Source: a virus. From it: a stretch of DNA of 29,535 nt. Location of the stretch: IMG/VR virus record IMGVR_UViG_3300009506_000139, positions 1-29,535 of that record; one strand, given 5' to 3'. Position numbers and translations under genes: made by a program. The notes under the pieces are model-generated. The model made no database searches. It worked only from the letters and a program-made list of their open reading frames with translations, and was not told where the DNA came from. Position 1 is the stretch's first letter; the number at the start of each line of letters is the position of its first letter. Of the stretch, positions 10,485-27,996 are shown piece after piece.

Positions 10485-12480
10485 CGGGTTTCCTCTTCCT
10501 TGAGAAAATAGGTTTCCGACTCAGCTGCTTCTGCTTCCAGTCGGGGTTCAACAAGTCACGATCATAGTCTTTGATGTCCGTAAAAATGTGGTACTCAGGT
10601 TTCGAACGTGTTTCCTCAGTGTCTTTATCGTAGAGACGCACCACACTAGGATCGATTCGAGGAATAGAACGCTTATCACTCAACAATTTGAAAACAGAAC
10701 CGCACAAACTATCAGCAGTATCTTTCCCCCCGCCCTCCGGGTGATCGACTTTCTCCTTCGTTTTGTGAGGGACGACCACCAGTTTTTTCAATTCCTCAAG
10801 CAAACGAGTATGCCGATAACACTTGATGCGCCGTTCCAAGATGACTTGCCGCAATACTTCATAGGGGACCATGCTAATATCCACAGACTGTTCCCCTGAG
10901 TCAAAACCCCTGCGGTCCAACTCCTGAATCGAATGAGTAGACTGATAGCGATCATATGATACAAACGCAATGGGTAGACCAGCACTATAAAGATATGATA
11001 TAAAATCAACGATCTGACCGAAACCGATCTCCTCAAATTCTCTATTCACGATCCGCACCGTAAAGTCTGTATGGATCAAATAGTCCTGTGTCGTATAGAT
11101 GTGACCGTCTTTGTCTTCACGTTCCACATTCATCAAGTCGCCCAAGCAGACACAGCTCATACCAGCCGCGTCTTGACGACCTTTCGCCAGATCAACATGA
11201 ATAAACCGAGAGCTATTCGGGTATTTACGAACGCGCCAGATGTCCCTGGTTTTGTCAATCAGATCGAACATCAGCTCTCTTTTGAAATTATCGATCAATG
11301 CGTTTCCAAGATCACGATGACCGACCATCACTTCTTCCTGCCGGAACGGATGGACCAAATCGTCGCTCACCATCGCATCAATTAAATCGCGCTGCTGGAT
11401 AAAGGGGTTCACACCGAATGTTGGTATCCCACCTAAATCTCGGATAGCCTCATTCAGATTACGATAGAATGTGTCCCAAAGCTCAACAGGAGGAGTAATA
11501 ATACGCATCCCGGAAGGAACATGCTCAGGCAATTCTCGGTGCATCGAAGATTCCTGACGATCGTTCCCAACCAAAACATAAAACCGTTTGGAGTTCCGAT
11601 ACTGGTGTTCCCGAGCCTCCCACGTCGCAAAACAGGTCACATGTGTATGTGGGTCGTTACCATACTTCTGACGATGCTGAGACAGAAATGCCTCTTGAGA
11701 CTTAGGTTGAGACGCCAATACCAGGAGCGGAATCGGAGCTACTCGGTGCATAAATTGAGTATCGATACGTTCCCGAATCTCCACGTATTGCGCCTGAATA
11801 CTACGCCCCTCGGCTCGTGGAATGTTCGCCTCATCCAACATACCGGAAAAGATCGCCCTACCCAACGAATGAATCGCCATTGAACCCAGAGCAAACACGA
11901 TACTTTTAGGCAAATCGACATAAGAGCTATTATGACGAGGAGTCGTAATGCTACGAAAATACGGACTTCTCTGCATATATCTTTGGATATTGTAATACGA
12001 CCCATCATCAACATTTTTCTTATGAATGTCGAAGAGGGCAATACCAATCTTCGTATCAGGAATCAAACCATAAAAATCCTGTGGCGCATGAAACGTGGTT
12101 AGCAAATAAATTTTATACAATAACGCGATCAAACCAGCCGTTGTCTTACCGGCACGGATACCGCCCTCGATGATCCACTCGTAAATCTCGTTCTGCGGAT
12201 CAAGAACATAGCGTAGCTCTTCGCGCCACGGCTCCCAGAAACTTCCCCCGAATCCTAGATAGTCATCCGAATCGATGAACTCATCAATACCAACAGGCTT
12301 CTCTGTTCGATCAATCTTCCAGAGCTCCTCAGCCGTTTCAGATCGTCCAGTCGTAGAGAGCTCATGAATCGATTGAATCAGAGATTTGTGAAGATCACTT
12401 GGAATATCGCTCCAAACCGTCGTATCCCCCACCAAGATACGATCAGCAAATTCCTGAATCTCCCTAGGTGTAAAACTCAT
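10477..12480 (-). CDS. terL: Terminase large subunit
   Basis: A 667-residue packaging ATPase and nuclease. Walker A is GGIRAGKTT (residues 106-114) and Walker B is MLDEAN (D216, E217). The C-terminal RNase H-like nuclease shows its acidic residues: IHVDLAKGRQDAAG near 430, FVSYDRYQS near 508 and KDTADSL near 588. The enzyme translocates DNA into the procapsid and cuts at headful or site boundaries. The N-terminal 100 residues before the ATPase, rather long, may bind the small subunit. The neighbour upstream, 12477-13262, is the probable small subunit. The start overlaps it by 4 bases. Confidence 0.92.
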   Translation of the reverse strand: MSFTPREIQEFADRILVGDTTVWSDIPSDLHKSLIQSIHELSTTGRSETAEELWKIDRTEKPVGIDEFIDSDDYLGFGGSFWEPWREELRYVLDPQNEIYEWIIEGGIRAGKTTAGLIALLYKIYLLTTFHAPQDFYGLIPDTKIGIALFDIHKKNVDDGSYYNIQRYMQRSPYFRSITTPRHNSSYVDLPKSIVFALGSMAIHSLGRAIFSGMLDEANIPRAEGRSIQAQYVEIRERIDTQFMHRVAPIPLLVLASQPKSQEAFLSQHRQKYGNDPHTHVTCFATWEAREHQYRNSKRFYVLVGNDRQESSMHRELPEHVPSGMRIITPPVELWDTFYRNLNEAIRDLGGIPTFGVNPFIQQRDLIDAMVSDDLVHPFRQEEVMVGHRDLGNALIDNFKRELMFDLIDKTRDIWRVRKYPNSSRFIHVDLAKGRQDAAGMSCVCLGDLMNVEREDKDGHIYTTQDYLIHTDFTVRIVNREFEEIGFGQIVDFISYLYSAGLPIAFVSYDRYQSTHSIQELDRRGFDSGEQSVDISMVPYEVLRQVILERRIKCYRHTRLLEELKKLVVVPHKTKEKVDHPEGGGKDTADSLCGSVFKLLSDKRSIPRIDPSVVRLYDKDTEETRSKPEYHIFTDIKDYDRDLLNPDWKQKQLSRKPIFSRKRKPDG

Positions 12481-13262
12481 CGTAACACTCTGCGTTTCGA
12501 TCGTGAACGATATACCCGCGCCTTCCCCGGTTTCTCCGGTTTCTCCGGTTTCTCCGGTTTAACCTTTGTCTCTTTCGATTTCTGTTTCTGCTTTGATTCC
12601 TTTAGAACGGATTTCTTCGTCGTCTTCGCTGAACCAGCATCCTCCCCCTTCTTAGAGTTCCACTGCTCAAAACTATTGACAAGAGCTGTGTGCATCATCC
12701 GAAACAATTCGCGCTGCTCCGGATCAGGCAATCCATCAACTCCGTGCAAACGACGACCCTGAAGAGTTTTGTCAATTTCTTCATCCGACATTCCAGGATT
12801 TGCTAAGAACGTACCTCCCTTCAAAACTTGTTCATGAGTCAACTTTTCAACAACATTCAATGCTTTTACATACTCGGTTTGATTATCTAAACCCATCTCC
12901 AGGACAGAATCCAAAGTAGGGGCCATAGATGACTGGAGTCGAGCACGAAATTCCCGGATACGCATTCCTTCCCAAAGAGCAGATGCGGTCAACCGAAGGA
13001 CACCATCGATCAGTCGAGCCTTTGTTTCTCGTATCCCCCCAGCCATAAACTCCTCTGGAGCAGAGAATCGGTCAAACATCGGACGAAGGAAGAGTTCGTT
13101 TTCCGTGGGCCAAGCCAGTCCTGTCTTGTCGCGTTCCGGGGTCTGTGACACATCATTTTCCCCACCTATGATCTCATCTGGCTCTCGGGCATCAGAATGA
13201 TCGTTGGGAGGAGCAACTTCAGGAAGCTCGGCTCCACGTCTAGTTCGATTATTATTTGGCAC
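12477..13262 (-). CDS. Probable terminase small subunit (by position), Lys/Pro-rich tail
   Basis: A 261-residue protein. It starts at GTG 13262, preceded by GGGAGG with a 9-base gap, giving an 11-base overlap with the sigma-like gene. The first 60 residues are poorly ordered (PNNNRTRRGAELPEVAPPND). Residues 65-200 are helical with LTHEQVLKGG and MSDEEIDKTLQGRRLHG. The C-terminal 50 residues are very basic with repeats KPEKPEKPEKPGK. The location just upstream of the large subunit suggests the small subunit, which binds DNA and recruits the motor, but no helix-turn-helix is clear. The basic tail could bind DNA. Confidence is moderate because only position and character support it. Confidence 0.5.
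   Translation of the reverse strand: MPNNNRTRRGAELPEVAPPNDHSDAREPDEIIGGENDVSQTPERDKTGLAWPTENELFLRPMFDRFSAPEEFMAGGIRETKARLIDGVLRLTASALWEGMRIREFRARLQSSMAPTLDSVLEMGLDNQTEYVKALNVVEKLTHEQVLKGGTFLANPGMSDEEIDKTLQGRRLHGVDGLPDPEQRELFRMMHTALVNSFEQWNSKKGEDAGSAKTTKKSVLKESKQKQKSKETKVKPEKPEKPEKPGKARVYRSRSKRRVLR
12527..12560. repeat. 9-base tandem repeat encoding Lys-Pro-Glu repeats
   Basis: Three full copies and a partial fourth of CCGGTTTCT in tandem, in frame within the gene above, giving the Lys-Pro-Glu repeats near its C-terminus. The copies are identical at the DNA level, so the array is probably recent and may vary in length by slippage among related phages. Confidence 0.85.
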
Positions 13263-14286
13263 GATCAACAACCTCCCTGAACGGCACAACCATTCTTCGC
13301 TCAACTTTCTGATAAGCAGCACGAATTTGATCCTCATTGAGCGAGTAGCGATTGCACAGTCCGGACATTACACGTTCAGAGTTCTTCCCCTTGGATAACG
13401 ATAAATAAATATCCATGTTAGCCAGAAAGAGCAGATAGTCTGCTTTCTTTGGGACTTGATAGGTATATCCGCGATGCTCCAATGATGCCCCGTCAAAAGC
13501 GACGATGAAATCAGACATCTTATCGAATCCCAGAATCTGTAGCAGCTCAGGAATGATTGAATGGGAATGAAAGGTAGCGGCCCCCAACGCCAGAGCATCA
13601 TTCAGATCAGCAATCAGATCACCGACTCGCACACCACGGCTCACGCGCTTCTCCGCAATAAAGCACAGCAGAGTACAATAGGAACGATAAAAAGGAATAT
13701 CGTCTTTTGGAACAGTGAAACGCTCCCAAAATTTGTTACCTGGGACAGTCCCCTTCGCGGATATGATTTCCAGCATAAACCGGCATAAACGACGCACTTC
13801 TTCGTCATCGAATCGAATAAGAGAGACAGCCATCGTATAGGTAGAATACTTTTGGTATTCCTGCTCCATCGCCTCTTCAGCTTGTTCGAACTCATTGGTT
13901 CGAACCAAAACAGATCGAATCGCCCCATCAGGATTTTCAATCGGCTCCTTCGGATAGTGGCGGTATTCAAATTTCTGTTTCCAGCGAACAGCCAAAACAC
14001 GTAATCGAGACCAGAAGTAAGCTGAAAAATCGAACTCCGACTCAAATTTTCGATTGCAGTTCCGAACCAAGTCCGTAATGACGAAGCAGCTCTCCCCCAT
14101 AAGATCATCGCGGTCTTCCCGCGTAAGGTCTTTCCACAAATAGAAAACCAAACGCCCAACCATAGGAAGCAAGGCCACAATCGTTTTGTCTCTCCACGCC
14201 GCCAACCTAGATGATCGGTAACGACAATAGAGAGTATAGGCTCGTTCACTATCATAGATTTTCTGTACCTCTTCGAGAAAATCCAT
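13252..14286 (-). CDS. Divergent sigma-70-like factor (tentative)
   Basis: A 344-residue protein. Residues 35-110 resemble sigma region 2: a helix ending VGRLVFYLW, then DLTREDRDDLMGESCFVITDLV (as in the E-DLxxE-GxxGLxxA stretch), then DFSAYFWSRLRVLAVRWKQKF, as in the region 2.3/2.4 helix that meets the -10 DNA. The C-terminus (CNRYSLNEDQIRAAYQKVERRM) could be a helix-turn-helix like region 4. A sigma factor would redirect host polymerase to phage genes. The gene sits beside SbcDC, as T4 gene 55 sits near gene 47, but the match is by eye and weak. No clear ribosome site lies before the ATG. It could instead be a virion or replication protein. Confidence 0.45.
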   Translation of the reverse strand: MDFLEEVQKIYDSERAYTLYCRYRSSRLAAWRDKTIVALLPMVGRLVFYLWKDLTREDRDDLMGESCFVITDLVRNCNRKFESEFDFSAYFWSRLRVLAVRWKQKFEYRHYPKEPIENPDGAIRSVLVRTNEFEQAEEAMEQEYQKYSTYTMAVSLIRFDDEEVRRLCRFMLEIISAKGTVPGNKFWERFTVPKDDIPFYRSYCTLLCFIAEKRVSRGVRVGDLIADLNDALALGAATFHSHSIIPELLQILGFDKMSDFIVAFDGASLEHRGYTYQVPKKADYLLFLANMDIYLSLSKGKNSERVMSGLCNRYSLNEDQIRAAYQKVERRMVVPFREVVDRAK

Positions 14287-14295
14287 CGTATTGGT

Positions 14296-17241
14296 TCACA
14301 AACTGGACACGCCATTCTCTTTGCGGACAACCCATCGCTGAGGAATCAAACCCTTGAGGAAGGAATGCTGTGTGACCAGATACACCGATAGTTCCTCATC
14401 CTCTGCTTTCTTCCGTAGCAGCGCAGCCAAGTTCTCCATGCCAGTCATATCCAGCTTATCATCAATTTCATCACAGATCAAAAGATTTGTATGCAAACCA
14501 GTTGTGGACCGAGCCAAAGCGTTCAAGGCAAACTGAATTACGAGATCGGCACGACGACGTTCCCCGCTGGAGCAAGACGTGTAAGATCGGTTCCCATGAA
14601 CCGCCACATTGAACTTGTCCACGACCTTTCCGCTCTTCAATTCGGTAGCCGAATCGATAATGACTCGATCATCGCCCAGGAGGATTTCAGAATACTCCTC
14701 CAGCTTATGATTCAGCCAGTCCACGACGGAACGCAGGACCATCGAACGAATGCCGGTCGGAGCGAAAATGGAAACGATGAATTCCTTTTCTGACAGTTTA
14801 TCGTTCTCGACTTGCAGCTCATTGAGAGCATTCTGCAACTGCGCCTCAGCCTCTGCCAGTCTCTTTTCGGCTTCATCCAGGTGTCGCTGACGTTCATCAC
14901 GCAAAGATTGAGCCGTTTTGATCGCGTTCTGCACCTGAACAATACTGCTTTCTAAATTACGAATCGTCCCCGCTGTTCCCGTTATAGTCTCACTCCAATA
15001 CAGCATCGATTCCTTGAGAGACTGTTGTGCTGCTTCCAAAGCATTCTTCTGCTCACAAAGAGAACGATGAATATCTTTCGCTGCGGTATACTCAGATTCC
15101 ATAGATGACAAATCAGGATCAGCCTGAGAATGCACATGCTCTGCTCGATCCAAGCTTTGACCACACTGCGGACACTTCCCCTCCTTCAATAGTGCCTGTG
15201 CCTCACGAGCCAGTTCCTTCCGCTGGTACAACACGGTCTCAATCCGAATACGAACCGATACCGCATCTTCCCATCGACGAACCACATCAGACAACTCATC
15301 AGCTAGAATCAATGATCTCTCATGGAGTTCATCATAATTTTTCTTTTCCCCCAAAATCTTCGCATTCTCTTGATCCAAATGTGACTGGAGAGATTCTAAT
15401 TTCTCATCACACTCGGAGATCGCAGTCTTATTACCGCTTTCCAAAAATTCTAGCTGCTGGCGAGCGAAGTCCACAGCCGATTGAGCCTGAGATGCAGACG
15501 CATGAGCACTTATTCGTTCATTGTTCTTTTGTTGGATGCCCCCCTCCACATCCCGCTTCCACTTCAATGCAGCAGCATGAATCGCATCATACAGATCGAG
15601 ACCGACGATCGACTCCACCAGCCTCTTCCGATCCGCATCACCCAAGTCCATGAAACGATGGCTCAAACCCTGGGTGAGAAAGAATAGATGCTGAGCGATC
15701 CCTGGTTCGATACCCAAGATTTCATCGATCACCTTTTGGCTGTCACTAGGGAGTCGAGGAGTCACATTCGAGTCCCCGATCTCGATGTCCAGGCCGGTCC
15801 CCTTCTGCGGCTGATTTCGATACCGATGAATCCGCAGAACCACATAATCACCGTTGGCTTCCCGAAACTCCAGGTCCACCCTTACCGAGCAAGGATCACC
15901 AGTTTTCTTCCCGTTCAGAAATCCGACTTCGGTCTTTCTGGTTCCCCGCAAAGTTTTGTCAAACAAGGCCCAATAGAGAGCTTCGAAGATCGCAGACTTG
16001 CCTGAACCATTTGATGCCGCCCCAGGATCGTCCAGGTTCTGCCCCTCCACCAGAGTCAGCCCTGGTTGCGTAAAGTCCACATAGAGCTGCCGAAAAGACA
16101 TAAAATTCTCAGCTGCCAAATTATTGAACCGAATCGACTTACCTTTGGACTGCCTAACCGATCCGACCTCAGCCACGAGTTCCTGGCAAGACTCCAGAAT
16201 CCGCCCCAGGTCCAAACCCTCGGGCAGCTCCACGCCCTCCAAGTAACGCCGCAGATTGGCGTCTACAGCCGTATCAAGCTCCAGGACGGCTTCCTGGTTG
16301 CCTCGGACCTCGATCGGGGCAGGAACGACAGCTGAATGCGCGAATTTGGCAATCTGGGACCGGAGCCGTTTGTCCTTTTCCAACCCTGGATCGTGCAGAT
16401 AGACCCGGACATTGGTTCGATCCCGATTGGAGAGCAGCTGGAGTTTGTCGATCTCCTCCTTCGAGTGGACATGAACCGTCTCGAAAATCTGGCAGTGAGG
16501 ATTCTCGATCCTCTTGATCTCCTGGGAGACCGTATCGAACAGGATTGCTCCCCGAGGAACCGGAGCCCCGCTGTCCGAAAACGTCCTGGCCGTAATCGAG
16601 CCGGGGAAGACAGCTTGCCGCCCACCTGGACCGGCGATCGCATGGGGCCGATGATAATGACCATTGAACAGGATACTCCCCTCCGGAAGCTGATCGAGCG
16701 TCATTCCCTTGGGGGATGGAGAACCGGCCTGACGATACGCCCCTTTGACCTCCATGTGACCGAACCAGATTTTGATCGAAGCATTGTCCTTCCCGGTCGG
16801 CAAGTCAGACAGGTCTGACCCGTAGGGTAGAAACCCGAGCCACTCAAACCGCAGAGGAGATTTCCGATTGACAAACTGCCGAGCCTTTACAGACCCATTG
16901 ACGTGATCCTGCATAAACGGCAGGAGATGAATCCGGGGGCTATAAATTTCGTGGTTGCCGAGTACCATCTCAAACTTCGCATCGATTTGAGCACACAGAT
17001 TCAAATGGTTACGCAAAAGCAATTCAGCAACATGCAACGATTGAGCATCGACATGATCGTGAGTGTGGAACACGTCGCCCAGACAAACCGATAGATGCGG
17101 ACGATGCTCTACCACCAGCTCATTCAACCAATCCCCGGTCTTCAGAATCTCCTGGAGATACGTGGTCAACCCGTCTTCAGTCGGTCGGCTGAAAGCGGAG
17201 TTCGGATAGATATGAGGATCGCCCCAGATCAGAATTTTCAT
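14296..17241 (-). CDS. SbcD-SbcC (Mre11-Rad50) fusion protein
   Basis: A 981-residue single chain that joins two subunits usually made separately. Residues 1-340 are an SbcD/Mre11 nuclease: GDPH (D8, H10), GDVFH (D56), GNHE (N96, H97), GHMEV (H162) and GHYHRPH (194-200) bind the two metal ions. Residues about 370-981 are SbcC/Rad50: Walker A NGSGKSA near 415, coiled coils, the zinc hook CPQC near 690, a signature motif (SCSSGERRR, near 892) and Walker B LLICDEID near 922. The complex opens blocked DNA ends and helps recombination (T4 gp47/gp46). GGAGG lies upstream. It runs from the stop of thyX to the sigma-like gene. Confidence 0.93.
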   Translation of the reverse strand: MKILIWGDPHIYPNSAFSRPTEDGLTTYLQEILKTGDWLNELVVEHRPHLSVCLGDVFHTHDHVDAQSLHVAELLLRNHLNLCAQIDAKFEMVLGNHEIYSPRIHLLPFMQDHVNGSVKARQFVNRKSPLRFEWLGFLPYGSDLSDLPTGKDNASIKIWFGHMEVKGAYRQAGSPSPKGMTLDQLPEGSILFNGHYHRPHAIAGPGGRQAVFPGSITARTFSDSGAPVPRGAILFDTVSQEIKRIENPHCQIFETVHVHSKEEIDKLQLLSNRDRTNVRVYLHDPGLEKDKRLRSQIAKFAHSAVVPAPIEVRGNQEAVLELDTAVDANLRRYLEGVELPEGLDLGRILESCQELVAEVGSVRQSKGKSIRFNNLAAENFMSFRQLYVDFTQPGLTLVEGQNLDDPGAASNGSGKSAIFEALYWALFDKTLRGTRKTEVGFLNGKKTGDPCSVRVDLEFREANGDYVVLRIHRYRNQPQKGTGLDIEIGDSNVTPRLPSDSQKVIDEILGIEPGIAQHLFFLTQGLSHRFMDLGDADRKRLVESIVGLDLYDAIHAAALKWKRDVEGGIQQKNNERISAHASASQAQSAVDFARQQLEFLESGNKTAISECDEKLESLQSHLDQENAKILGEKKNYDELHERSLILADELSDVVRRWEDAVSVRIRIETVLYQRKELAREAQALLKEGKCPQCGQSLDRAEHVHSQADPDLSSMESEYTAAKDIHRSLCEQKNALEAAQQSLKESMLYWSETITGTAGTIRNLESSIVQVQNAIKTAQSLRDERQRHLDEAEKRLAEAEAQLQNALNELQVENDKLSEKEFIVSIFAPTGIRSMVLRSVVDWLNHKLEEYSEILLGDDRVIIDSATELKSGKVVDKFNVAVHGNRSYTSCSSGERRRADLVIQFALNALARSTTGLHTNLLICDEIDDKLDMTGMENLAALLRKKAEDEELSVYLVTQHSFLKGLIPQRWVVRKENGVSSL

Positions 17242-18026
17242 TATACCTTCCTCCGATCCGTCTCCAGTGCCTCACCGCCATCGTCGCATAGAATGACCTG
17301 ATAGTCCGAAAAGTATTCGGGAAGCTCATTCACCATGATACGCCACACCTTCATCGCCCACCGACGAATCTCCTGATCCGCTGCCGGATGCGCTCGCTGC
17401 TCGATCACATTCCGCAAGGCACGGACATTAGCTGACCAGACCATCTCCGTCATCAACGCATTGCCGAGGAGTCCACGAGCAGCTCCACGCGCCTGTTTCC
17501 GCGCCGTCAGCTTATCAACTCCATGCTTCAACAAATACTCCTCCAGGTTCTGAACAACGACGTAGTATGCCCGTTGACAAATACCTTTGACTTTCTCGAA
17601 ATACCAATCCTCCTCGTCTCGAACGACCACCTGATCGATATACTCCCGAAGCAAGGGATGCACGATCCAATCTGAATCGCTCTCATCAACATATCGAGTT
17701 GAACGCTGGGAAATCGCAACCCCGATCCGATGGCGCACTAGCTCATGGGTCAATCCCCGGCTCACCCCGGAAATGAAAAATGTGTATTGGGCATGTTCCA
17801 GCACTGATCCGTGGCCGACCTCCAAAATATGATCGGCAAATGCCGAACTCGACCGACCCGAACCAAACGAATCGTAACAGGTCCGTCCTGCCGTCTCAAT
17901 CAGATTGGCAGCTCCGCAACCGTACAGCTGGTTTTCTGCGGGACGCCCGAGCTCCTTTGGCAACTCAATGAAGCTGGGACGACCGATTAGCCGCACAATC
18001 GGGTAGGCGTTTTCACTCTCTTTCAT
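17241..18026 (-). CDS. thyX: Flavin-dependent thymidylate synthase (ThyX)
   Basis: A 261-residue enzyme that makes dTMP from dUMP using FAD/NADPH and methylene-tetrahydrofolate. The family signature is seen as GHGSVLEHAQYTFFISGVSR (residues 71-90, with E77 and H78), then RHRIGVAISQRSTRY (98-112), in which R98-H99-R100 bind flavin. The distance from RHR to the downstream Ser-x-Arg-Tyr (S109) is one residue longer than the commonest form (RHR-x7-S), but some ThyX groups look alike. ThyX is typical of lytic phages that need extra dTTP. The start has GGAGGA and AGGAG close by, overlapping the upstream gene by 14 bases. Confidence 0.95.
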   Translation of the reverse strand: MKESENAYPIVRLIGRPSFIELPKELGRPAENQLYGCGAANLIETAGRTCYDSFGSGRSSSAFADHILEVGHGSVLEHAQYTFFISGVSRGLTHELVRHRIGVAISQRSTRYVDESDSDWIVHPLLREYIDQVVVRDEEDWYFEKVKGICQRAYYVVVQNLEEYLLKHGVDKLTARKQARGAARGLLGNALMTEMVWSANVRALRNVIEQRAHPAADQEIRRWAMKVWRIMVNELPEYFSDYQVILCDDGGEALETDRRKV

Positions 18027-18402
18027 TGCTCCTGTCCTCCTCTACGATGAAACAGTTATGAATGATCTCCGCAGTTTCCTCTGATGGCCTTTTACCAACA
18101 AAAGGATTAAACAACGGACTCGCTACGATCTTCTCCATCAAAGTCTGCCGTCGCGCCATAGCAGCGATCGTTGCGAGAATCGAAGTTTCGCGCTCCTCCA
18201 GAATATGTCTCCGCGCTTCCTCCCGAGTCAGAGTCCCACCCCATCCTGCTTCATGCGCCCAGATCATCGTATCCAAATCTGAGGAGGAATCCACGTTGGT
18301 CAGCGGATAAGGTATCGGGGAGATGACACGCGCCCCGTCAGGTCCAGTGATGGTCGCCGTCGTTGGTCCCAGTTCCACCTGGAAGCCGTCAGGAATTATC
18401 AT
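18013..18402 (-). CDS. Hypothetical protein
   Basis: A 129-residue protein from the ATG at 18402 (MIIPDGFQVELGPTTATITG). AAGGA lies upstream; the longer frame before it covers the preceding small gene. The first 35 residues look like a beta hairpin; the middle (GTLTREEARRHILEERETSILATIAAMARRQTLMEKI) is helical. No family is recognised. It overlaps ThyX by 14 bases. Confidence 0.65.
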   Translation of the reverse strand: MIIPDGFQVELGPTTATITGPDGARVISPIPYPLTNVDSSSDLDTMIWAHEAGWGGTLTREEARRHILEERETSILATIAAMARRQTLMEKIVASPLFNPFVGKRPSEETAEIIHNCFIVEEDRSNERE

Positions 18403-18592
18403 CCGGCTTTTCCTTCCAGCACTCCCCGTATCCACGCTGAATCACCCGCCCCCGCCTCGATACGAGATCGACATAATTCCTGTGAATGCGCCGAACCGTC
18501 CTGGTAGCATACGTGTTACCTTCCTCGATATAGACCGTATCGCCGCGCTGAGCGATCCTCTGGTCAACCGTTGTGAATTGATGCTTCGGCAT
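18389..18592 (-). CDS. Small basic hypothetical protein
   Basis: A 67-residue, basic, beta-rich protein (QRGDTVYIEEGNTYATRTV, then VDLVSRRGRVIQRG) whose pattern is compatible with a small SH3-like barrel. RNA or DNA binding is conceivable but not shown. GGAG lies 7 bases upstream of the ATG. It overlaps the next gene by 14 bases. Confidence 0.6.
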   Translation of the reverse strand: MPKHQFTTVDQRIAQRGDTVYIEEGNTYATRTVRRIHRNYVDLVSRRGRVIQRGYGECWKEKPDDNS

Positions 18593-18619
18593 AACCCTGC
18601 TCCTTCATTATTATCTAAC

Positions 18620-18931
18620 TTACTTAGCCCGATCTCGACACCCACAGTGAGAACCATAAAGATTTTTCGCGCCACATATAGAGCATGTACGATCAGGCTC
18701 TTTAGCATCTCCCGCAGAAGGCTGTGAAGTCTCTTTCACCAAACTAACAGAAGGCTGCGAAGTCTCTTTTACCAAACTAAGGGAAATACTTCCATCTAGC
18801 TCCCCACGAATAAACGCCCACACAGCAGAAGGAATCAAGGAATCGGGTATGTCAACCACGTAAGTTTTAAGACTCTGAGTCCCTGTGTGAATAAGAGCGC
18901 CAAAATCGTTGGTAGTCATTGCGATTTTCAT
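18620..18931 (-). CDS. Hypothetical protein with internal repeat and C-terminal zinc site
   Basis: A 103-residue protein. The first 50 residues contain a short beta/alpha region. Residues 52-72 hold two copies of an 11-residue unit (SLVKETSQPSV / SLVKETSQPSA), produced by a 33-base tandem duplication. The end has CSICGAKNLYGSHCGC, a C-x2-C...C-x-C knuckle that may bind zinc. Function unknown. GGAGGGG lies 7 bases upstream of the ATG. Confidence 0.65.
   Translation of the reverse strand: MKIAMTTNDFGALIHTGTQSLKTYVVDIPDSLIPSAVWAFIRGELDGSISLSLVKETSQPSVSLVKETSQPSAGDAKEPDRTCSICGAKNLYGSHCGCRDRAK
18715..18780. repeat. 33-base tandem duplication
   Basis: Two adjacent 33-base copies that differ at only two positions (T/C and C/T). 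They encode the duplicated 11-residue unit above. Near identity of the copies implies a recent duplication; the unit is in frame, so the protein is not broken. Confidence 0.9.
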
Positions 18932-18944
18932 AAGATTTCCCCTC

Positions 18945-19865
18945 CTATCTCAAATTCTGAAACGGAATAATCCAGGACGCATAGTCCTCATAAATGCTAC
19001 GCAGACCCAACGATTTCAAAAGATTCGTCATCCCCTGATCATTATAACGATAGGGTTTATCAAACGTATGCTGTATCGTTGCCCGAACCTCATCAGGCAG
19101 AACCTCCAGACCCACATCCATCAGTTTCAGATTGCGCTCAACCACGTCCCACTGCTCCGCGATCTTCTTTACCCGATTCGACTTCATCTGCTTACAGGCT
19201 TCGCAGAACTCAGCTCTGGTTTCAAAAGCGATCGAGTTCAACGCTTCCCTCGCCGTCTTGTCCCCGGCCCCATTCACACCTGGAATGCAGTCACTCGGAT
19301 CGCCAACGATCGCCCGATACAGCATGTAGTCATTGATCGACCGCAGACCCGTGAATTCCTGGACTTGCTCTGAATGAACGACCTCACCCTTGACCGGACG
19401 ATAGACCATTGTTTCTAGGTCAACGAACTGGATCATGTCTTTGTCATCGCTCACGATCAAACGACGGCTCAGCGGATTGGTCAGTTGCAGAACCCAACCG
19501 ATCAAATCGTCGCCCTCCACATCGGGGAACTGCAAATGCCGAATACCTAGCCGCCACAGAAAACTATTCTGGATAATCTCCTGCTGAAGAAAGGCATCTT
19601 CGAACCGCTGCTGCTCCTTCGGGTCTTGGCTCTTCGGCTTGGCTTTGTACTCAGGGAATAATTCACGGCGACGTTTCGACTTGCCACCATCATAAACGAC
19701 GACCACAGAATTGATCGTCGGGAATTTCGTCATCAATCCGTGCAAGGATCGCAGCCATCCCAGGACAACGCCGGTCGGCATTCCCTCACTATTTGTCATT
19801 CGTTGCAGCTCTCTGATGTGCCGCAGACGATGAGTCAAATAGTTTCCGTCAACGATTGCTAACAT
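18945..19865 (-). CDS. 5'-3' exonuclease (T5/T4 RNase H/PolA-type 5' nuclease)
   Basis: A 306-residue flap endonuclease-family enzyme that removes RNA primers and 5' flaps. Visible acidic metal ligands are D6 (IVDGNYL), D59 (VVYDGGK), E117, D119 and D120 (VEGDDLI), and D140, D141 and D143 (VSDDKDMI). The helix-3-turn-helix follows (GDPSDCIPGVNGAGDKTA, residues 188-205) and binds DNA. The large polymerase at 23616-26705 has no 5' nuclease domain, so this separate enzyme fits the missing role. GGAG lies 9 bases upstream of the ATG at 19865; the frame upstream of it lies in the RNA ligase gene. Confidence 0.9.
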   Translation of the reverse strand: MLAIVDGNYLTHRLRHIRELQRMTNSEGMPTGVVLGWLRSLHGLMTKFPTINSVVVVYDGGKSKRRRELFPEYKAKPKSQDPKEQQRFEDAFLQQEIIQNSFLWRLGIRHLQFPDVEGDDLIGWVLQLTNPLSRRLIVSDDKDMIQFVDLETMVYRPVKGEVVHSEQVQEFTGLRSINDYMLYRAIVGDPSDCIPGVNGAGDKTAREALNSIAFETRAEFCEACKQMKSNRVKKIAEQWDVVERNLKLMDVGLEVLPDEVRATIQHTFDKPYRYNDQGMTNLLKSLGLRSIYEDYASWIIPFQNLR

Positions 19866-19866
19866 C

Positions 19867-20535
19867 TTATTTTGCTCCCTTCTTTTTCTTTTCAAACCAA
19901 TCAAACATATCACGGCGAATCTTACACATTGCCGTATCAGGATCGGCCAACGGATCGGTATTCCGAATTACGATTCCCTCCGCGAAATCCTCCGCGCCAT
20001 TACACCAATGCGCTTTGACACGGGATTCCAAACCCTGCATAATAAATGAAAGTTTCTGAAAAGAATCTATCGTTAATTCCCGCACCGGATCAAGAGGGCT
20101 ATTCATTTCCCCTGGAAGGTCTCTTGGATCAAAAGCGAAGTACCGACGCAAATAGGAAAAGGGAATCCAAATATGCCGATCCAGCCCAAGGAAGTTGTCC
20201 CCGCCACTCACCTTCGGCCCCATAACCTCCCCAAAATGCTGCCCATCGGTCAAGGGGACATATCCCTTTTCAAACGCATTCCGAATGCCCTCTGCCAAAT
20301 GGCTCTTATCGAAAAACGTAGCGGGATAGAAATTGGTTCGATTCGTATATGCCACAAGCTCCCGATTACGAATAACCAGGCTCACATTCGTACCGTCAAT
20401 CTTTTCGGAAATTTCAATATCGCCAGAGCGGTTGAAAACCCATTCGTAACCAGGATTGATTTGATTCGTAACTTTTCCACGTTCCCGAATTAGTGGACAT
20501 TCGATTTTCGGAAAGTCGCTCCAAATCAGATTCAT
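19867..20535 (-). CDS. RNA ligase (Rnl2-type), minimal
   Basis: A 222-residue nucleotidyltransferase that joins or repairs RNA ends through a lysine-AMP intermediate. Motif I is KIDGTN (K45 is the AMP acceptor), motif III-like FGEVMG follows at about 102-107, motif IV is EGIVIR near 187-192 and motif V ends in CKIRRD (K near 206). Only the catalytic domain is present; the C-terminal domain of larger T4 Rnl2 is missing. It may repair tRNA breaks made by host anticodon nucleases, as T4 ligases do, though a kinase partner is not in this window. AAGGA lies 8 bases upstream. It directly precedes the 5' nuclease. Confidence 0.85.
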   Translation of the reverse strand: MNLIWSDFPKIECPLIRERGKVTNQINPGYEWVFNRSGDIEISEKIDGTNVSLVIRNRELVAYTNRTNFYPATFFDKSHLAEGIRNAFEKGYVPLTDGQHFGEVMGPKVSGGDNFLGLDRHIWIPFSYLRRYFAFDPRDLPGEMNSPLDPVRELTIDSFQKLSFIMQGLESRVKAHWCNGAEDFAEGIVIRNTDPLADPDTAMCKIRRDMFDWFEKKKKGAK

Positions 20536-20550
20536 TATTCTATTCCTTTC

Positions 20551-20769
20551 TCAATGATGACAGTCATCGATACAATTATCTATCGCATCGAGACGCTGAC
20601 GACGAATCTCCTGCGCGACCACATCCTCAATACGATCCTGAAACGGGATAATAGACTGAACTAGGTAAGACTCACATGAAGATAGCCATTCGTCCACATC
20701 CAGCTCATAACGAACCCAATCACGGATAGCGTCCCACAGCTCCAGTCGAAATTTAGGATCGAGTTTCAT
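20551..20769 (-). CDS. Small hypothetical helical protein
   Basis: A 72-residue protein starting at 20769, where AGGAG lies 6 bases upstream (MKLDPKFRLELWDAIRDWVRY). An in-frame extension upstream would read into the folded noncoding segment. The product is helical and acidic with three Cys and a His-His end. Unknown function. It lies just below the structured segment at 20790-21134, so it may have its leader within that RNA. Confidence 0.6.
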   Translation of the reverse strand: MKLDPKFRLELWDAIRDWVRYELDVDEWLSSCESYLVQSIIPFQDRIEDVVAQEIRRQRLDAIDNCIDDCHH

Positions 20770-20789
20770 ATCCGTCTCCTTCATAAAGG

Positions 20790-21134
20790 TGGGCGACAGT
20801 CGGCCAGCTTCTACTTTTCGCTTCCAGCAGCGAGTCGCCAACTCACTACATTATCCCGACAATCGGTTGCGTCCTGGCTCTTGCTTCAGGAATTACGGGA
20901 GCGACCCCAACCTGACTCCGGGTTTAACGACCGCCGCCCTCCCGGATTCCAATGTATGCGGGGCTCCCACCCGCTGCGGCATCACGTTCATGCCTCTGGT
21001 CCGTTGTCCATCCCGCCCAGCCACGCACCTACAGCCAGACTCGTATCGTGAGTTACACCCCGTCGTATACGTTTTCTCCCATTCCCCACGATCAGACCGT
21101 GCATAAGATTAACGGGGCCGCACGGTCCTCACGA
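20790..21134 (-). ncRNA. Possible structured noncoding RNA (about 345 bases)
   Basis: The longest stretch without a convincing minus-strand gene. On the minus strand it folds into many short, compatible helices. At the 5' end (minus sense) a 7-base pairing, 21046-21052 with 21128-21134, abuts an 8-base hairpin, 21095-21102 with 21120-21127. The loop of that hairpin (21112-21117) can pair with 21058-21063, a 6-base pseudoknot. Further helices are 20995-20999/21035-21039, 20978-20982/20990-20994, 20897-20902/20963-20968 (enclosing 20917-20922/20941-20946), 20872-20876/20887-20891 and 20792-20797/20834-20839 (enclosing 20818-20822/20829-20833). Base composition is G+C-rich. The layout recalls transposon-associated guide RNA scaffolds (HEARO/IscB or TnpB omega RNA), but I cannot verify it; no endonuclease gene is adjacent. 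Confidence 0.5.
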
Positions 21135-21296
21135 CTACTTCTGCCGAGTCTCCTTTTTCTTCGCAGCCGGTTTCTTAGCCGCAGTCGGTTTCCGTTTCAC
21201 TGGCAATTGGACGACGTTCGACTTCTTCTTCGGCCCCACCTGGACGATCTGAGCCCCGATCGCGTTGACAACGTGTTCAACGGACTCACGAACCAT
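21135..21296 (-). CDS. Lys/Ala-rich tail and VRES helix, downstream half of an FlbD-like gene split by TAG
   Basis: A 53-codon frame whose ATG directly follows, in frame, the TAG that ends the previous gene. It reads MVRESVEHVVNAIGAQIV, then a basic, histone-like tail (QLPVKRKPTAAKKPAAKKKE). The VRESVEHVV segment is what an FlbD/YlzI-like protein has after its Gly-Gly hairpin (VKESxEEV), and the gene before stops exactly there. It has only a weak ribosome site of its own (GGTGGCGG). So this is either the second half of one protein read through the TAG, or a restart by coupled translation. The tail could bind nucleic acid. Confidence 0.6.
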   Translation of the reverse strand: MVRESVEHVVNAIGAQIVQVGPKKKSNVVQLPVKRKPTAAKKPAAKKKETRQK

Positions 21297-21479
21297 CTAG
21301 GAACCGCCACCGCTCATCACTTCGATTCCGGTATGCTCCGGAATTTTCCGTTCACCCATCCCAGGGATCGGGCCTACCTGACGAACATCGGCCTCATGAT
21401 GAGAGACAGCGCAAATCAGTTCGGAGTTGATGTAGATCGGCTCATCACTGATAGTCGATGTCAACTTGAGCATACGCAT
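21297..21479 (-). CDS. FlbD/YlzI-like protein, N-terminal half before an in-frame TAG
   Basis: A 60-residue product (start MRMLKLTSTISDEPIYINS; end GIEVMSGGGS, TAG). The first strand, the strand ending ELICAVS and the Gly hairpin match FlbD/YlzI-like proteins, but the last helix is missing and appears after the stop, in the same frame, at 21294. GGGGG lies 6 bases upstream of the ATG, which overlaps the TAA of the single-stranded DNA-binding protein gene by one base. Compare 2752-2979, which is uninterrupted. Other genes here (for example 10203-10484 and 23281-23604) use TAG as a normal stop, so whole-genome reassignment is unlikely. Confidence 0.6.
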   Translation of the reverse strand: MRMLKLTSTISDEPIYINSELICAVSHHEADVRQVGPIPGMGERKIPEHTGIEVMSGGGS

Positions 21480-22591
21480 TAGTTACCCCCTTCCTGATAG
21501 GTGGCTTGACACGGGGCCTGATGTGAACAGGTCAGACATTTGCGGAGCATGGCATCGAAACCACGCTTCCCGGTTTCACGATGCGGCATGTTTCCGCCGT
21601 AGCACGGATACTTTGCCCCATCCACTTCCGGAGGAAGCTGAGCGTTCGCCCCCTGGTTGGTCGGCGGTTGCGGGGGAGCAGAAGACGTTTCCGGCTGAGT
21701 CACCGGAGCTTCGGCAGGAGCTGATGCCACAGGACGGCTCACAGGAGGAGGAGTTGTCGGACGGTTTCCGGGAAGAGACATGCTGCCAGGGGACGGGATG
21801 TGACCCAGGAATTGTCCCAGGATGTTATTCGCGCCCCTGTGCAATTCCTGAATACAGGTCTCATCCGGATACGGGAAGTAGGTCTCCAGGTTCGGCAAAG
21901 CATCCAGCGCATCGTAAATGGCGTCCAGATTCGCCACTCCCGGCTTGTCCGGATATGTGATCCAAGGAATACGCAGGGCCGCATACTCACCCGTATTCTG
22001 GTCAACCTCGTCATTGTCCTGAACGATGTGAGCCGGATAATCCGGAAAACCGCTTGGCGTCTTATCAATCTTTTTGACATCCAGAATAACGGCCCTCTCC
22101 GGGTGCAAAGAATTGATGTCGAGCTGCAATTGATCGACCAAAGGTCGGATAGCTTTCATTGCCAATTCCCAGACCCGAAACGCATCCTTCAGCGGAACGC
22201 CTTTGTGCTTCACATCGCTCCGATTAAACGCATTGACGTAGGCTTTCGTATTTGCTCGTTTCCCCCCCAAAAGACGACTCTGCTCCTCACTAAGCGTATC
22301 CCCGACTTCCTGATTGATCTTCTCGATCGCCGCACAGATCGGACACGTATCGTTTCCCGGCCAAAACGCCAAGCAAGGCAAAGGAGCCCGTCCGGACGGA
22401 TGACATCCCCAGTGCCAACCGAGAGTCCGCTGATAATTCCCGCCCTCCATGAGCGGTGGGGCAATCACAAGTTGATACGACCCTTTTTCGATCCGCATCG
22501 TATTCGTATTGTAAAACTGAACACTGCCAGTCGCATTCGACTGGAGATGCTGTTTCCCCGGAGTCGGGATCGTCCTTCGTTGCTGTGTCAT
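21479..22591 (-). CDS. T4 gp32-like single-stranded DNA-binding protein
   Basis: A 370-residue protein. Four zinc ligands are visible at exactly the spacing of T4 gp32: H60, C73, C83 and C86 (H-x12-C-x9-C-x2-C). The domain continues with YVNAFNRSDVK and beta strands. A Pro-rich linker (about residues 275-325) leads to a second Cys group (YPCYGG, KCLTCSHQAPC) not found in T4 gp32, and the acidic tail is absent or altered. The protein would coat single-stranded DNA in replication, recombination and repair. The start at 22591 is chosen for AAGGA 7 bases upstream. Confidence 0.8.
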   Translation of the reverse strand: MTQQRRTIPTPGKQHLQSNATGSVQFYNTNTMRIEKGSYQLVIAPPLMEGGNYQRTLGWHWGCHPSGRAPLPCLAFWPGNDTCPICAAIEKINQEVGDTLSEEQSRLLGGKRANTKAYVNAFNRSDVKHKGVPLKDAFRVWELAMKAIRPLVDQLQLDINSLHPERAVILDVKKIDKTPSGFPDYPAHIVQDNDEVDQNTGEYAALRIPWITYPDKPGVANLDAIYDALDALPNLETYFPYPDETCIQELHRGANNILGQFLGHIPSPGSMSLPGNRPTTPPPVSRPVASAPAEAPVTQPETSSAPPQPPTNQGANAQLPPEVDGAKYPCYGGNMPHRETGKRGFDAMLRKCLTCSHQAPCQATYQEGGN

Positions 22592-22605
22592 GTTGGTTTC
22601 CTTCA

Positions 22606-22644
22606 TTGGTTTTCGCTGTTGGTTTTCGCTGTTAGTTTTTCGCG
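22606..22644. repeat. 13-base direct repeat, two perfect and one degenerate copies
   Basis: TTGGTTTTCGCTG occurs twice back to back, followed by a related third copy (TTAGTTTTTCGCG), in the short gap upstream of the single-stranded DNA-binding protein gene. The minus-strand form (CAGCGAAAACCAA) lies 5' to the ribosome site. It may bind a protein or simply be a slippage array; no -10 or -35 is seen near it. Confidence 0.75.
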
Positions 22645-22662: not shown

Positions 22663-23133
22663 TCAAACCGACATGGGGCTCGCTTTCCTTTCCTGCCGTT
22701 CATTGATCGATAACTGTTCCAATGCTTTGAACCGAGTAAGAACTGCCCACCGCAAATGCTCCAGGAATCGAGCCACGGAATTCAGGTCTTCGGTTCGACG
22801 AGCCAACGCCTGATAGTCGGCATTGTCACGGACAAAACTTTCCGCTTTCCATTGAGGGGTTCTGGAAGAAAGAGAATTGTCGCAGGACTGCATAGCCAAT
22901 CGATGATACATACGATCGCTCTCAGAACGGCTCAGCGATTCCAGGCGACGATACTTCTCTGCGACATACGCAGCGATCGCTTCCAATTCCGATTGCCGCT
23001 CGATCTCATCCTTCAAATCTCCGATCTTCAATGACTGGATGATTTTCAAAACGAGATCGCGGTCCTCATCCTCCAGATGAGGAATCTCATCGGTTTCCTG
23101 AATTCTCTGGACCAGAATCTGTAGCATGTCCAT
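22663..23133 (-). CDS. Helical protein, possible UvsY-like recombination mediator
   Basis: A 156-residue all-helical protein just upstream of the single-stranded DNA-binding protein. Its plan, an N-terminal acidic region, then a helix with YxxxxxxLESLSRSESDRMY, a segment with VRDNADYQALARR, and a final helix (ARFLEHLRWAVLTRFKALEQ), is similar to T4 UvsY and to other phage recombination mediators that load a RecA-like protein onto coated DNA. The match is of shape and place, not of residues I can prove. GGGAG lies 6 bases upstream. The gene overlaps the previous one by 47 bases. Confidence 0.45.
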   Translation of the reverse strand: MDMLQILVQRIQETDEIPHLEDEDRDLVLKIIQSLKIGDLKDEIERQSELEAIAAYVAEKYRRLESLSRSESDRMYHRLAMQSCDNSLSSRTPQWKAESFVRDNADYQALARRTEDLNSVARFLEHLRWAVLTRFKALEQLSINERQERKASPMSV

Positions 23134-23615: not shown

Positions 23616-26600
23616 CTAAAATTGAAAACCGGGGGTAGTATACACCGGCATACGATCCGATGTCAATTCGGGGAACTTCAATAGGTAGGAAACGGCCCCC
23701 TCATCCAGCAATTTTTCTTTAGTTGCTCCACTTTTCCGCACAACCTCCATGATCTGCTCGATCCAGGTAGTGCTTTCCGGTTTGTCCTCATCGTCAATGT
23801 GAGCCGTGATAATCAGGCGACGATCCGAGAGCAGCTCCAAGTCCACCATCTCACCCCAGTTCAGACCGATCTCAAAGTCCACTTTGAGGGGAACGGTCAA
23901 CATCGGAAAACGCTGCACCAAATTCGTTGTCATCTCGTCATGCTGAAGCTGCGTGTAATCGAACAGCTCGAACACTGGCACATCGGCCTCAATCGAGTCA
24001 TGGATAAATGCCCAGAGCTTCGAATGCAAGCCGCGCTCCTTAATGCCACGATAAATGCCTTGAAGCGCAAAAGTCGCCCAGTCCGAACTCTGCCCCTGGA
24101 TCGGAGTGTTCATCGCCTGACGAATCGCATGTTTACGAATGTTCTCATTAGCATGATACACATCAGGCAACAACCTTCTCGCACCGAGCGAAGTATAGAT
24201 ACACCCATGCTCTTTGACATAGCTCTCACAGAACTTCATATAGTCCCTGATCTTGGAAAAGGTTTTAAGCCAGCGGTCAACAAACTCCTCTGCTTCCTCC
24301 AGGGAAATTCCGGATTGAGCCGAGATCGTAAATGGAGTCGCCCCGTAAAGAATACCGAAGTTCGTCGTCTTTGCTTTGCGACGCTCATGCGCCGTAACCT
24401 CTTCTAGTGATTTCCCCAAGATTCGTGCGGCTGTGGCTCTGTGAATATCCATACCTGATTTGAAAATTCCCAACATAGTTGAGTCGCCACTGATCCGTGC
24501 TGCTTCACGCAGCTCCATCTGACTATAGTCTCCGGCTACGATCACGCCATCCTCGAACCGAGAACGATACACTCGTTTCACCTGGGACATGAAAGGTACG
24601 GTCTGCACAGTTGGATCATAAGCGGTCCAGCGGCTCGTCCCCGTTGTCCGGATACCAAAGTTCGAATGAGCACAACCATCTTCCCCAATAAAATCGTAAA
24701 GAGGTTTCACATAGCTCGTAAAATGCTTGTTGAGCACACGATAGTCGAGCAGAACCTTCAAGGCTTCTATCGTCTGATCGTAATACTCCACATTGTTCGA
24801 ATCGTTTCTCTTGCAACGCTGAAGATATTCGATATGCAGTTTGATCGTTTCCTGGTCCGTACTTCCCTGTACCTTTGCAAAACCACGTTTGGCAAGCCAA
24901 TTGCTCTCTCCCACCTCTTTATAATGTTCCACCTGATAGGGCAGCCCCATCACTCCGTGAAACAGGAGGTTCATCGACTGCCAACCACCCAAAACCAGCT
25001 TATAGTCATACTGATCCTTCAACGCCTTTTCGTAACCATGATCGACGAACCATTGGAAGTATTCGTTGAGCTGAGATTCTTCCCTCTTCTCAACCTCTGC
25101 CAACAAGGGCTGATCAATGAAGACTCCGTTTTTCCGCATCTCAACTGCTGGATCATGACTTTGCATCGACAAATAGTGAAACACCCAGATCAATTTATGA
25201 GGAGAGAACCACTTCTCCCCAAATATCGATTCGTCCAGACCGATCTCTCGGAGCATCTCTAACTGCACCGGAACCAGATGGGCAACGGTAACAACGTCGC
25301 CACAGGCATATTCCTGGAACACGTTATACGGAACGTCCTCAAACGGGTCTTGACCCTTTTTGAGTTTTTCCTGCTCTGCTCTCATCCGCTCCTTCGGATG
25401 GACGTAATCCGTATACTTCGTTGCCAGATAATCGAGATCATGGGGTTCCGTGTCATTCGACAAGACCCAAGCAGCCAACATCGTATCATGCCTGACGGAG
25501 CCATCCGGAATCTTGATGTTGGTAGAAGCAATGAAGGAGGTATGGTCAAACTGGAAGTTCTGCCCCGCCAATGGTACATGAGAAAACAAACGGGTCAGCG
25601 CAGCATTGATCCGTTTGTAGACGAGGAGATCACCGACAAACGGACTATGCTTGTGCTTGTAAGGTATGAATCCTGTATCGAGTTGATCGAACGGGATTTT
25701 CTTATCGGCTAACCCGCGACAAATTGTCACACATAAGATGCGAAACGTGGGATGAAAAATATCGAGACCGCCCCTCGGACCCTCGCTAGAGGACTCTAGG
25801 TCCACACTGATAAAATCGAACTCTTGATTGTCATAGGCTCGGATCAGCCGGTCCACATAGCCCTCCACTTTGGCAACCGTATCCAAATCCTGAAACGTGA
25901 TTTCCTGTTTGGCTTCACCCTGAATGATCCGTCTAGCATAAACCAAATCCTGAAAGATCAAATCACGGTATTTCTCGTTCCCTCGCAGGACTGCCGCAGG
26001 ATGGATAATGGGTAACACCTGGAACGTACCGGCATACGGTTTCTCCCCCAGGTGGAGAATCTCCAGAGGGTACAACCCACCCCGGAGTTTCGTGATCGTC
26101 TTCTTCCCAATCAAACTCAGAGCCGCCGTTGCCCCCACTGCGATCACAAGCTCGGGTTGATACTCACAGATTTCCCGCTCAATGTAATGGCGACAAGCCA
26201 GCATCTCATCCTGAGTAGGAGTCCGAATCGAATTGTCATCGTGAGGACAGCAGCGCACAACATTAGTAAACCGAACCCACTCCTCAGGGATATTCGCGTC
26301 GCTCAGCATGTCGCGGAGCAAACCGCCAGCAGGACCGACAAACGGCATGTTGGCTACGTCCTCCTGCTTCCCCGGAGCCTCGCCCACAATCAGGATTCGT
26401 GGCGTCTCACTACCACATCCCTGCATATTTACATAAGTCGCGTTCTCATTCAGGCCACACCGCTGACACAGATTTGATGCGACTTCAACAAACTCATCCC
26501 CCCGGCACTGTCCACAGTACACAGACTTGTCCGTATAGCTCTGCTCTTTGGGCTTCTCCCCCAGATAGATACTCGGTCCCATATATGCGCGGCAATAGAA

Positions 26601-26705
26601 ACAATGCAAAATAATTGTTCCGCCCTGCTCAACAAGACCGTCATTAGCACCTGTTACGTTTTTCCACGATTTAGGAACTGGTTTCTGGAGTCCTGTGGTG
26701 TGCAT
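23616..26705 (-). CDS. Fusion of uracil-DNA glycosylase and DNA polymerase I
   Basis: A 1029-residue protein. Residues 25-60 hold a zinc pattern (HCFYC, YCGQC). Residues 60-265 are a family-4-like glycosylase: CQRC, then GEAPGKQED with PFVGPAG, CC...C (18-base-type insertion between the two metal Cys), and IIHPAA. The Fe-S ligands of the family seem kept. Residues 270-600 hold a proofreading domain (FISVDLESSS near 300). The PolA palm follows: motif A AGDYSQMELREA near 728, motif B TNFGILYG and motif C FIHDSIEAD near 902. It copies the phage genome; the glycosylase may excise uracil in step. SPO1-like phages also carry such a fusion. Confidence 0.92.
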   Translation of the reverse strand: MHTTGLQKPVPKSWKNVTGANDGLVEQGGTIILHCFYCRAYMGPSIYLGEKPKEQSYTDKSVYCGQCRGDEFVEVASNLCQRCGLNENATYVNMQGCGSETPRILIVGEAPGKQEDVANMPFVGPAGGLLRDMLSDANIPEEWVRFTNVVRCCPHDDNSIRTPTQDEMLACRHYIEREICEYQPELVIAVGATAALSLIGKKTITKLRGGLYPLEILHLGEKPYAGTFQVLPIIHPAAVLRGNEKYRDLIFQDLVYARRIIQGEAKQEITFQDLDTVAKVEGYVDRLIRAYDNQEFDFISVDLESSSEGPRGGLDIFHPTFRILCVTICRGLADKKIPFDQLDTGFIPYKHKHSPFVGDLLVYKRINAALTRLFSHVPLAGQNFQFDHTSFIASTNIKIPDGSVRHDTMLAAWVLSNDTEPHDLDYLATKYTDYVHPKERMRAEQEKLKKGQDPFEDVPYNVFQEYACGDVVTVAHLVPVQLEMLREIGLDESIFGEKWFSPHKLIWVFHYLSMQSHDPAVEMRKNGVFIDQPLLAEVEKREESQLNEYFQWFVDHGYEKALKDQYDYKLVLGGWQSMNLLFHGVMGLPYQVEHYKEVGESNWLAKRGFAKVQGSTDQETIKLHIEYLQRCKRNDSNNVEYYDQTIEALKVLLDYRVLNKHFTSYVKPLYDFIGEDGCAHSNFGIRTTGTSRWTAYDPTVQTVPFMSQVKRVYRSRFEDGVIVAGDYSQMELREAARISGDSTMLGIFKSGMDIHRATAARILGKSLEEVTAHERRKAKTTNFGILYGATPFTISAQSGISLEEAEEFVDRWLKTFSKIRDYMKFCESYVKEHGCIYTSLGARRLLPDVYHANENIRKHAIRQAMNTPIQGQSSDWATFALQGIYRGIKERGLHSKLWAFIHDSIEADVPVFELFDYTQLQHDEMTTNLVQRFPMLTVPLKVDFEIGLNWGEMVDLELLSDRRLIITAHIDDEDKPESTTWIEQIMEVVRKSGATKEKLLDEGAVSYLLKFPELTSDRMPVYTTPGFQF

Positions 26706-27687: not shown

Positions 27688-27850
27688 TCAACGGAATCCG
27701 AGTCCTCGTTTGCTCGATCGGTTTCTGATCGAGAGTCTTCTCCTCCCACGAGTAGGAGCAGTTCTGACAGGTACGACAAAGAAACTCTTTATCCGGCCTG
27801 AAAACGTGAGACGTTGTTACATCCGAGCTTCCACATTTTGGACAGTTCAT
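27680..27850 (-). CDS. Small zinc-ribbon protein
   Basis: A 56-residue protein from the ATG at 27850, with GGGAGG 4 bases upstream. A longer reading frame upstream lies in the noncoding gap and lacks a ribosome site. Residues include CPKCGSSDV and CRTCQNCSYSW, giving a TFIIS-like zinc ribbon. It overlaps the primase start by 8 bases, so a role with the primase or polymerase is plausible but unproven. Confidence 0.7.
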   Translation of the reverse strand: MNCPKCGSSDVTTSHVFRPDKEFLCRTCQNCSYSWEEKTLDQKPIEQTRTRIPLND

Positions 27851-27996
27851 GTGACCTCCCATTTGTAGATAATGCCGATGTGCGGTCCGGTCTGACTCAG
27901 GGAAATTCAGAGACCGCTTCGAGACCCCTCTACCAACCAATTTGGTTCAGAGGTTCGACTCTCGGGCGCATCGGCTACTGCCCAATTCCAGTTGTG
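27851..27996. other. Gene-free gap with long inverted repeat
   Basis: A 146-base gap between two minus-strand genes. GCCGATGTGC (27874-27883) can pair with GCGCATCGGC (27966-27975), a 10-base stem with one G-U, enclosing about 80 bases with a 6-base pairing (27882-27887 / 27912-27917), a 13-base palindrome (AACCAATTTGGTT, 27935-27947) and AGAG-GTTCGA-CTCT (27949-27962), whose loop looks like a tRNA T-loop. No canonical cloverleaf can be drawn, and no promoter is visible. It may be a tRNA-like relic, an attenuator or a structural element. Confidence 0.4.

Follow-up and report, generated by a model that had tools for sequence, protein, structure and literature searches.

The DNA analyzed here, referred to as the window, is the complete 29,535-nucleotide stretch of virus record IMGVR_UViG_3300009506_000139, and all genes of this 29.5-kb record are on the minus strand. 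In transcription order, genes for DNA polymerase A, two small genes, the SSB gene, a 60-aa gene and a 53-aa gene lead up to the segment under study, which is followed by a small gene (within 20784-20551), an RNA ligase gene and a 5'-3' exonuclease gene (Table 1). The 53-aa gene had no match in PHROGs, Pfam or PADLOC, and the downstream small gene had no family match. The likely start of the latter is an ATG preceded by AAGGAG, giving a protein of about 72 aa; this phage commonly uses AAGGAG as its ribosome-binding sequence, and the minus strand has 20 copies. Elsewhere in the window, positions 14296-17241 (minus strand) encode a single 981-aa protein that is a fusion of SbcD and SbcC (PHROGs 100 and 77; Pfam), and 9-nt tandem repeats (TTCTCCGGT) occur at 12523-12558 within the coding region 12477-13337. 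In alignments with polymerase relatives from other phages, the match begins at query residue 80 or before and covers the uracil-DNA glycosylase-superfamily region.

Table 1. Genes and sequence features at the locus, listed in the direction of transcription
Feature	Position in the window	Strand	Basis or remark
DNA polymerase A with N-terminal uracil-DNA glycosylase domain	23616-26705	-	Pfam
SSB gene	21479-22606	-	operon context, upstream of the segment
Upstream 53-aa gene	21135-21296	-	coding score 0.34 per codon; Lys/Ala-rich tail
Direct repeat AAGGAGAC, first copy	21148-21155	-	repeat D4; within the 53-aa gene, at its 3' end
Gene-free segment	20785-21134	-	between the 53-aa gene and the small gene preceding RNA ligase
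P1 5' strand, UCGUGAG	21128-21134	-	inverted repeat I11; adjoins the UAG stop at 21137-21135
P2 5' strand, GACCGUGC	21120-21127	-	inverted repeat I7; flush against P1
Pseudoknot strand in the P2 loop, CCCCGU	21112-21117	-	duplex energy -9.9 kcal/mol
P2 3' strand, GCACGGUC	21095-21102	-	inverted repeat I7
Pseudoknot partner between P2 and the P1 3' strand, ACGGGG	21058-21063	-	pairs with 21117-21112
P1 3' strand, CUCACGA	21046-21052	-	inverted repeat I11
Hairpin GAAUCCGGG ... CCCGGAGUC	20914-20949	-	inverted repeat I6; 9-nt arms, 89% complementary; formed in the local MFE structure
3' part with outer helix GGCGAC/GUCGCC	20778-20841	-	sub-threshold Rfam int-alpA match
Direct repeat AAGGAGAC, second copy	20774-20781	-	repeat D4; contains the likely Shine-Dalgarno sequence of the downstream small gene
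Downstream small gene	20551-20784	-	77-aa ORF; coding score 0.31 per codon
RNA ligase gene	19867-20535	-	PF09414, E=7e-7; phrog_548

The interval 20785-21134 contains no gene, as had been proposed from the sequence at the outset. The segment had no three-base periodicity (p=0.69), in contrast to its two flanks, where this signal was strong (p<0.001). The codon-usage score, for which the clear genes of the window served as training set, was close to zero in all six frames from the ORF at 20551-20784 to the stop codon at 21135. Six-frame translations of the segment (with X at stops) compared with Pfam and PHROGs gave only matches with E values of at least 0.03, so that no protein family was recognized in any frame. 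The G+C content of 59% places the segment at the 99th percentile among 345-nt windows, compared with 46-55% in its neighbors. By the same scoring, 4237-4651, 4940-5260 and 27688-27996 are likewise stretches to which no gene was assigned, and weaker ORFs may fill them. An unrecognized short gene, such as the 38-aa ORF at 20988-21104, is very improbable: the frame of that ORF has a codon score of +0.13 around 21010-21105, in the lower quartile of true genes, but other frames there score similarly, the ORF has no ribosome-binding site, the 5' half of the segment in which it lies shows no periodicity (p=0.84), and the Pfam and PHROGs scans returned no family match for it.

The segment had also been described as densely folded throughout, a description that failed in comparison with shuffled sequence. 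Set against dinucleotide-preserving shuffles, 370 nt had an MFE z-score of -0.51 for the minus strand, where no folding stability beyond composition was found; the plus-strand value was -1.50. The thirds of the segment gave z-scores of +0.39, +1.11 and -0.67, the first of these being the pseudoknot region folded without its pseudoknot. Because the MFE of the whole and of its thirds equals that of shuffles, the nine short helices that can be drawn in this G+C-rich 345-mer are unremarkable. A scan with 120-nt windows found most of the segment ordinary, with only 20821-20940 low (z -2.2), and the hairpin formed by GAAUCCGGG and CCCGGAGUC was not demonstrated above chance. The lowest fold z-scores of the whole window (-3.3 to -4.7) were those of 22970-23110 (minus strand), a long hairpin within the 156-aa ORF 22663-23133.

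One local RNA-like fold at the 5' end of the segment is statistically unusual when compared with shuffles. The helices named in the original prediction (21046-21052/21128-21134 and 21095-21102/21120-21127) are present and flush with one another, as is the 6-base pseudoknot, in which CCCCGU at 21117-21112 pairs with ACGGGG at 21063-21058. P1 (7 bp), P2 (8 bp) and the candidate pseudoknot (6 bp) are all perfect, and together they span 21046-21134. P1 and P2 of this length were found in 3 of 3,000 shuffles and the combination with the pseudoknot in none of 3,000, counts that overstate the true significance because the motif was defined post hoc, after it had been noticed. Neither strand of the window has a second instance of the combination. 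The probability of P1 was about 0.88 when the 111-nt element was taken in isolation; in the full-length ensemble, competing pairings dominate, and the probabilities of P1 and P2 fall to 0.16 and 0.06. After the usual pseudoknot penalty, itself an estimate, the pseudoknotted fold is approximately level with the best nested fold. Stop-codon readthrough or bypassing at the adjoining UAG was considered and rejected, since a second in-frame stop follows six bases on (UAG UCG UGA); for bypassing, we know of no precedent for a ribosomal hop of 350 nt.

All of these helices consist of Watson-Crick pairs and would therefore form equally on the other strand or in DNA. This property, together with the position of the segment between the genes for SSB, RNA ligase and 5'-3' exonuclease, would suit an element that works at the DNA level (a replication origin, for example, or a recombination or packaging site), with the inverted repeats acting as DNA. 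Such an element is nevertheless improbable, as the segment has no A+T-rich unwinding region (G+C 59%) and no iterated binding sites, and the GC skew has no local sign change.

The original prediction had likened the segment to the omega RNAs of HEARO/IscB and TnpB systems, and the Rfam search that it suggested was carried out together with a TnpB omega-RNA model; neither the HEARO nor the TnpB model matched the segment. For HEARO (RF02033), no match was obtained up to E=10 in a 1-kb search, nor in a separate genome search, whereas all 12 IscB loci used as positive controls (from plasmids and phages) matched with 59-154 bits; the control alignment yields a HEARO consensus that the segment does not resemble. 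A DNA pattern based on HEARO was tried and set aside, having produced one chance match in IMG/VR, in a coding stretch (L001), and none in GTDB genomes. For TnpB, a covariance model (R1) was built from 15 omega RNAs at TnpB 3' ends. This model recovered 31 of 46 held-out TnpB loci and covers the sampled TnpB clade only; against the window at E values up to 10, it gave 28 weak matches elsewhere and none in the segment, even with filters off. The peptide FLKQEPGRNR, which had been taken for a TnpB-like tail and the mark of a stripped transposon end, is preceded by an in-frame stop, and no connection to TnpB was found by tblastn (plasmids and phages) or Pfam. To one TnpB 3' end, the segment had an 82% match over 28 nt (E=1.7), within the score range of reversed-sequence controls.

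That the segment is a HEARO RNA, or an RNA of the modeled TnpB clade, is therefore refuted. An OMEGA guide RNA of either type without its nuclease is barely credible: the superficial style of hairpins and a pseudoknot, the short peptide and the 28-nt match speak for it, but both covariance models with working controls were negative, no trace of a TnpB or IscB protein was found by tblastn or Pfam, and the 28-nt match is no better than the reversed-sequence controls; a distant TnpB clade outside the model is formally possible. The main present value of the analysis is a negative one, in that a possible solo OMEGA guide RNA has been struck off by tests whose positive controls worked.

No Rfam family reached its gathering score in the segment, and searches for tRNA and tmRNA, considered as further candidates, were negative. 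The best sub-threshold Rfam match of the whole window was to int-alpA (RF02996) at 20778-20841, with 24.9 bits against a gathering score of 35.8 (E=0.011 for 1 kb, 0.32 for the whole window). We regard this match as a weak lead, not an identification, and a literature search on int-alpA returned nothing useful. It bears on whether the segment could give rise to a trans-acting phage small RNA that is not of the guide type, for example in the style of int-alpA, processed from or initiated within it. The match falls exactly in the 3' part of the segment, and the 5' domain is compact and pseudoknotted, which would fit such an RNA; yet the score is under the curated cut-off, no int-alpA gene context was found in the window, and on the minus strand within the segment neither a sigma-70-type promoter nor a terminator was recognized. 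Complementarity of at least 11 nt elsewhere in the phage was also absent, except for a stretch resembling a ribosome-binding site. On this balance, we consider a small RNA of this kind unlikely.

A feature that the original prediction had not mentioned is the 8-mer AAGGAGAC, of which the window has exactly two copies, one on each side of the segment. Excision of the 374 nt between the copies brings the 53-aa and downstream ORFs into one frame (...KKKET / ETDMKL...). The pair of repeats may reflect an insertion with an 8-bp target duplication, or it may consist simply of a ribosome-binding site and a Lys-Glu-Thr coding sequence. The restored frame would also be compatible with a group I or group II intron, or another self-splicing insertion, joining the flanking ORFs. 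This is highly improbable, because the 1-kb search, run up to E=10, gave no match to any group I or group II model, although the models were functional (group II domain V was recognized in one control locus with 42.9 bits), and no gene for an intron endonuclease or reverse transcriptase is present. As a separate observation, an 18-nt repeat (17/18 identical), GAAGAAAAAGGAGA[C/G]TCG, occurs at 21145-21162 and 1990-2007; the former copy lies a short way upstream of the segment, within the 53-aa gene's tail, and the latter is the ribosome-binding region of the pyrophosphatase gene (1576-1986).

If the repeats are a target duplication, the segment would be a small inserted DNA element, or the decayed remnant of one, of about 366 nt, which split one gene into the 53-aa gene and the small gene that now flank it and has no function for the phage. 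Consistent with this, the copies at 21155 and 20781 bracket the segment, the flanking ORFs share a frame without the intervening sequence, the G+C content is raised over that of the neighbors, the terminal AAGGAG of the 53-aa gene is not followed at the usual spacing by a start codon, and distant syntenic contigs have no spacer at that place. Against it, no terminal inverted repeats were found at the segment borders where the direct repeat lies, no transposase is present, and no relative with an empty site was found for comparison. Moreover, one AAGGAG copy is expected in any case, the other lies in a Lys/Glu-rich coding tail, and the coincidence of frame has a chance of 1 in 3. We regard an insertion as possible on a tentative footing, and it is the main rival of an intercistronic RNA, with which it is nearly tied; if true, the locus would represent ordinary gene disruption by a small noncoding element.

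Relatives of the segment were sought by several routes. No homologue was found by blastn in phages and plasmids, by a single-sequence covariance model of the core run over about 1.5 Mb of phage sequence and TnpB/IscB loci, or through relatives of the RNA ligase and DNA polymerase (searched with a single sequence or an alignment), among which the nearest polymerases have 28% identity. Further DNA patterns, three in IMG/VR and one in GTDB, gave a few matches, all unrelated. In all, phages, plasmids, IMG/VR and GTDB yielded no homologue in which covariation of the helices might show. Two distant contigs (L069 and L024) keep the order of polymerase, SSB and exonuclease, and their genes are contiguous where the segment would be. 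In L069, positions 10001-20113 carry genes for polymerase, SSB, a RecA-like protein, exonuclease and SbcD/SbcC in an order comparable to that of the window.

Our preferred reading, to which we assign a probability of about one in three, is that the segment is a lineage-specific noncoding element in the phage replication operon, acting in cis as an intercistronic RNA or giving rise to a small RNA released from the operon transcript. Because no promoter or terminator was recognized on the minus strand inside the segment, we infer that it is read through as part of a polycistronic minus-strand transcript. In vivo, the first 89 nt, beginning with the base after the upstream stop, would fold into a coaxial P1/P2 hairpin closed by the 6-bp pseudoknot, and the remainder would form ordinary hairpins as far as the next gene's ribosome-binding site. 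Acting in cis, the RNA structure would most likely govern how the transcript is processed or decays, or how strongly the SSB genes upstream are expressed relative to the small gene, RNA ligase and exonuclease downstream; alternatively, a small RNA may be released from the operon transcript.

Several observations point to such an intercistronic RNA. Genes with good coding signal lie on the same strand on both flanks, the structure starts at the very base after a stop codon, an AAGGAG ribosome-binding site lies at the other end of the segment, and the combination of P1, P2 and pseudoknot was absent from the shuffles, with P1 probable locally. On the other side, the energy of the whole segment is no better than that of shuffles, P1 and P2 are improbable in the full-length ensemble, the motif was chosen post hoc, Watson-Crick helices are not strand-specific, no homologue was found, and the syntenic contigs L069 and L024 have no such spacer between polymerase and exonuclease. 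The more specific proposal of a previously undescribed phage ncRNA, defined by a P1/P2 coaxial stack with a loop-to-junction pseudoknot at the stop codon and regulatory or trans-acting in the replication operon, is doubtful. Should the segment prove to be a genuine RNA element, it would add one more orphan structured RNA to those in phage operons, together with a precise pseudoknot.

Three known systems come closest to the segment. Like the HEARO/IscB omega RNA, it is noncoding, a few hundred nucleotides long, and able to form several helices and a pseudoknot, but it does not match RF02033 at any threshold tried, and directly 3' of it there is no iscB or isrB but an unrelated small gene and then RNA ligase. 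With TnpB omega RNAs, which lie at the right ends of IS200/IS605 and IS607 elements, it shares a noncoding, structured character and a short KQEP-like peptide in one frame; it differs in having no tnpB, in not being scored by R1, and in its lack of the conserved GCCTGYGGAG...TGAARCAGGAA...GAATCC hairpin...GTCAA elements. The likeness to int-alpA RNA consists of a weak full-length alignment of the last 64 nt, including the GCGAAAAG stretch and the outer helix. The segment departs from that family in scoring below 35.8 bits, in having neither a U-rich terminator tail nor an integrase/alpA neighborhood, and in carrying a 5' pseudoknot domain of its own, which int-alpA RNAs do not have.
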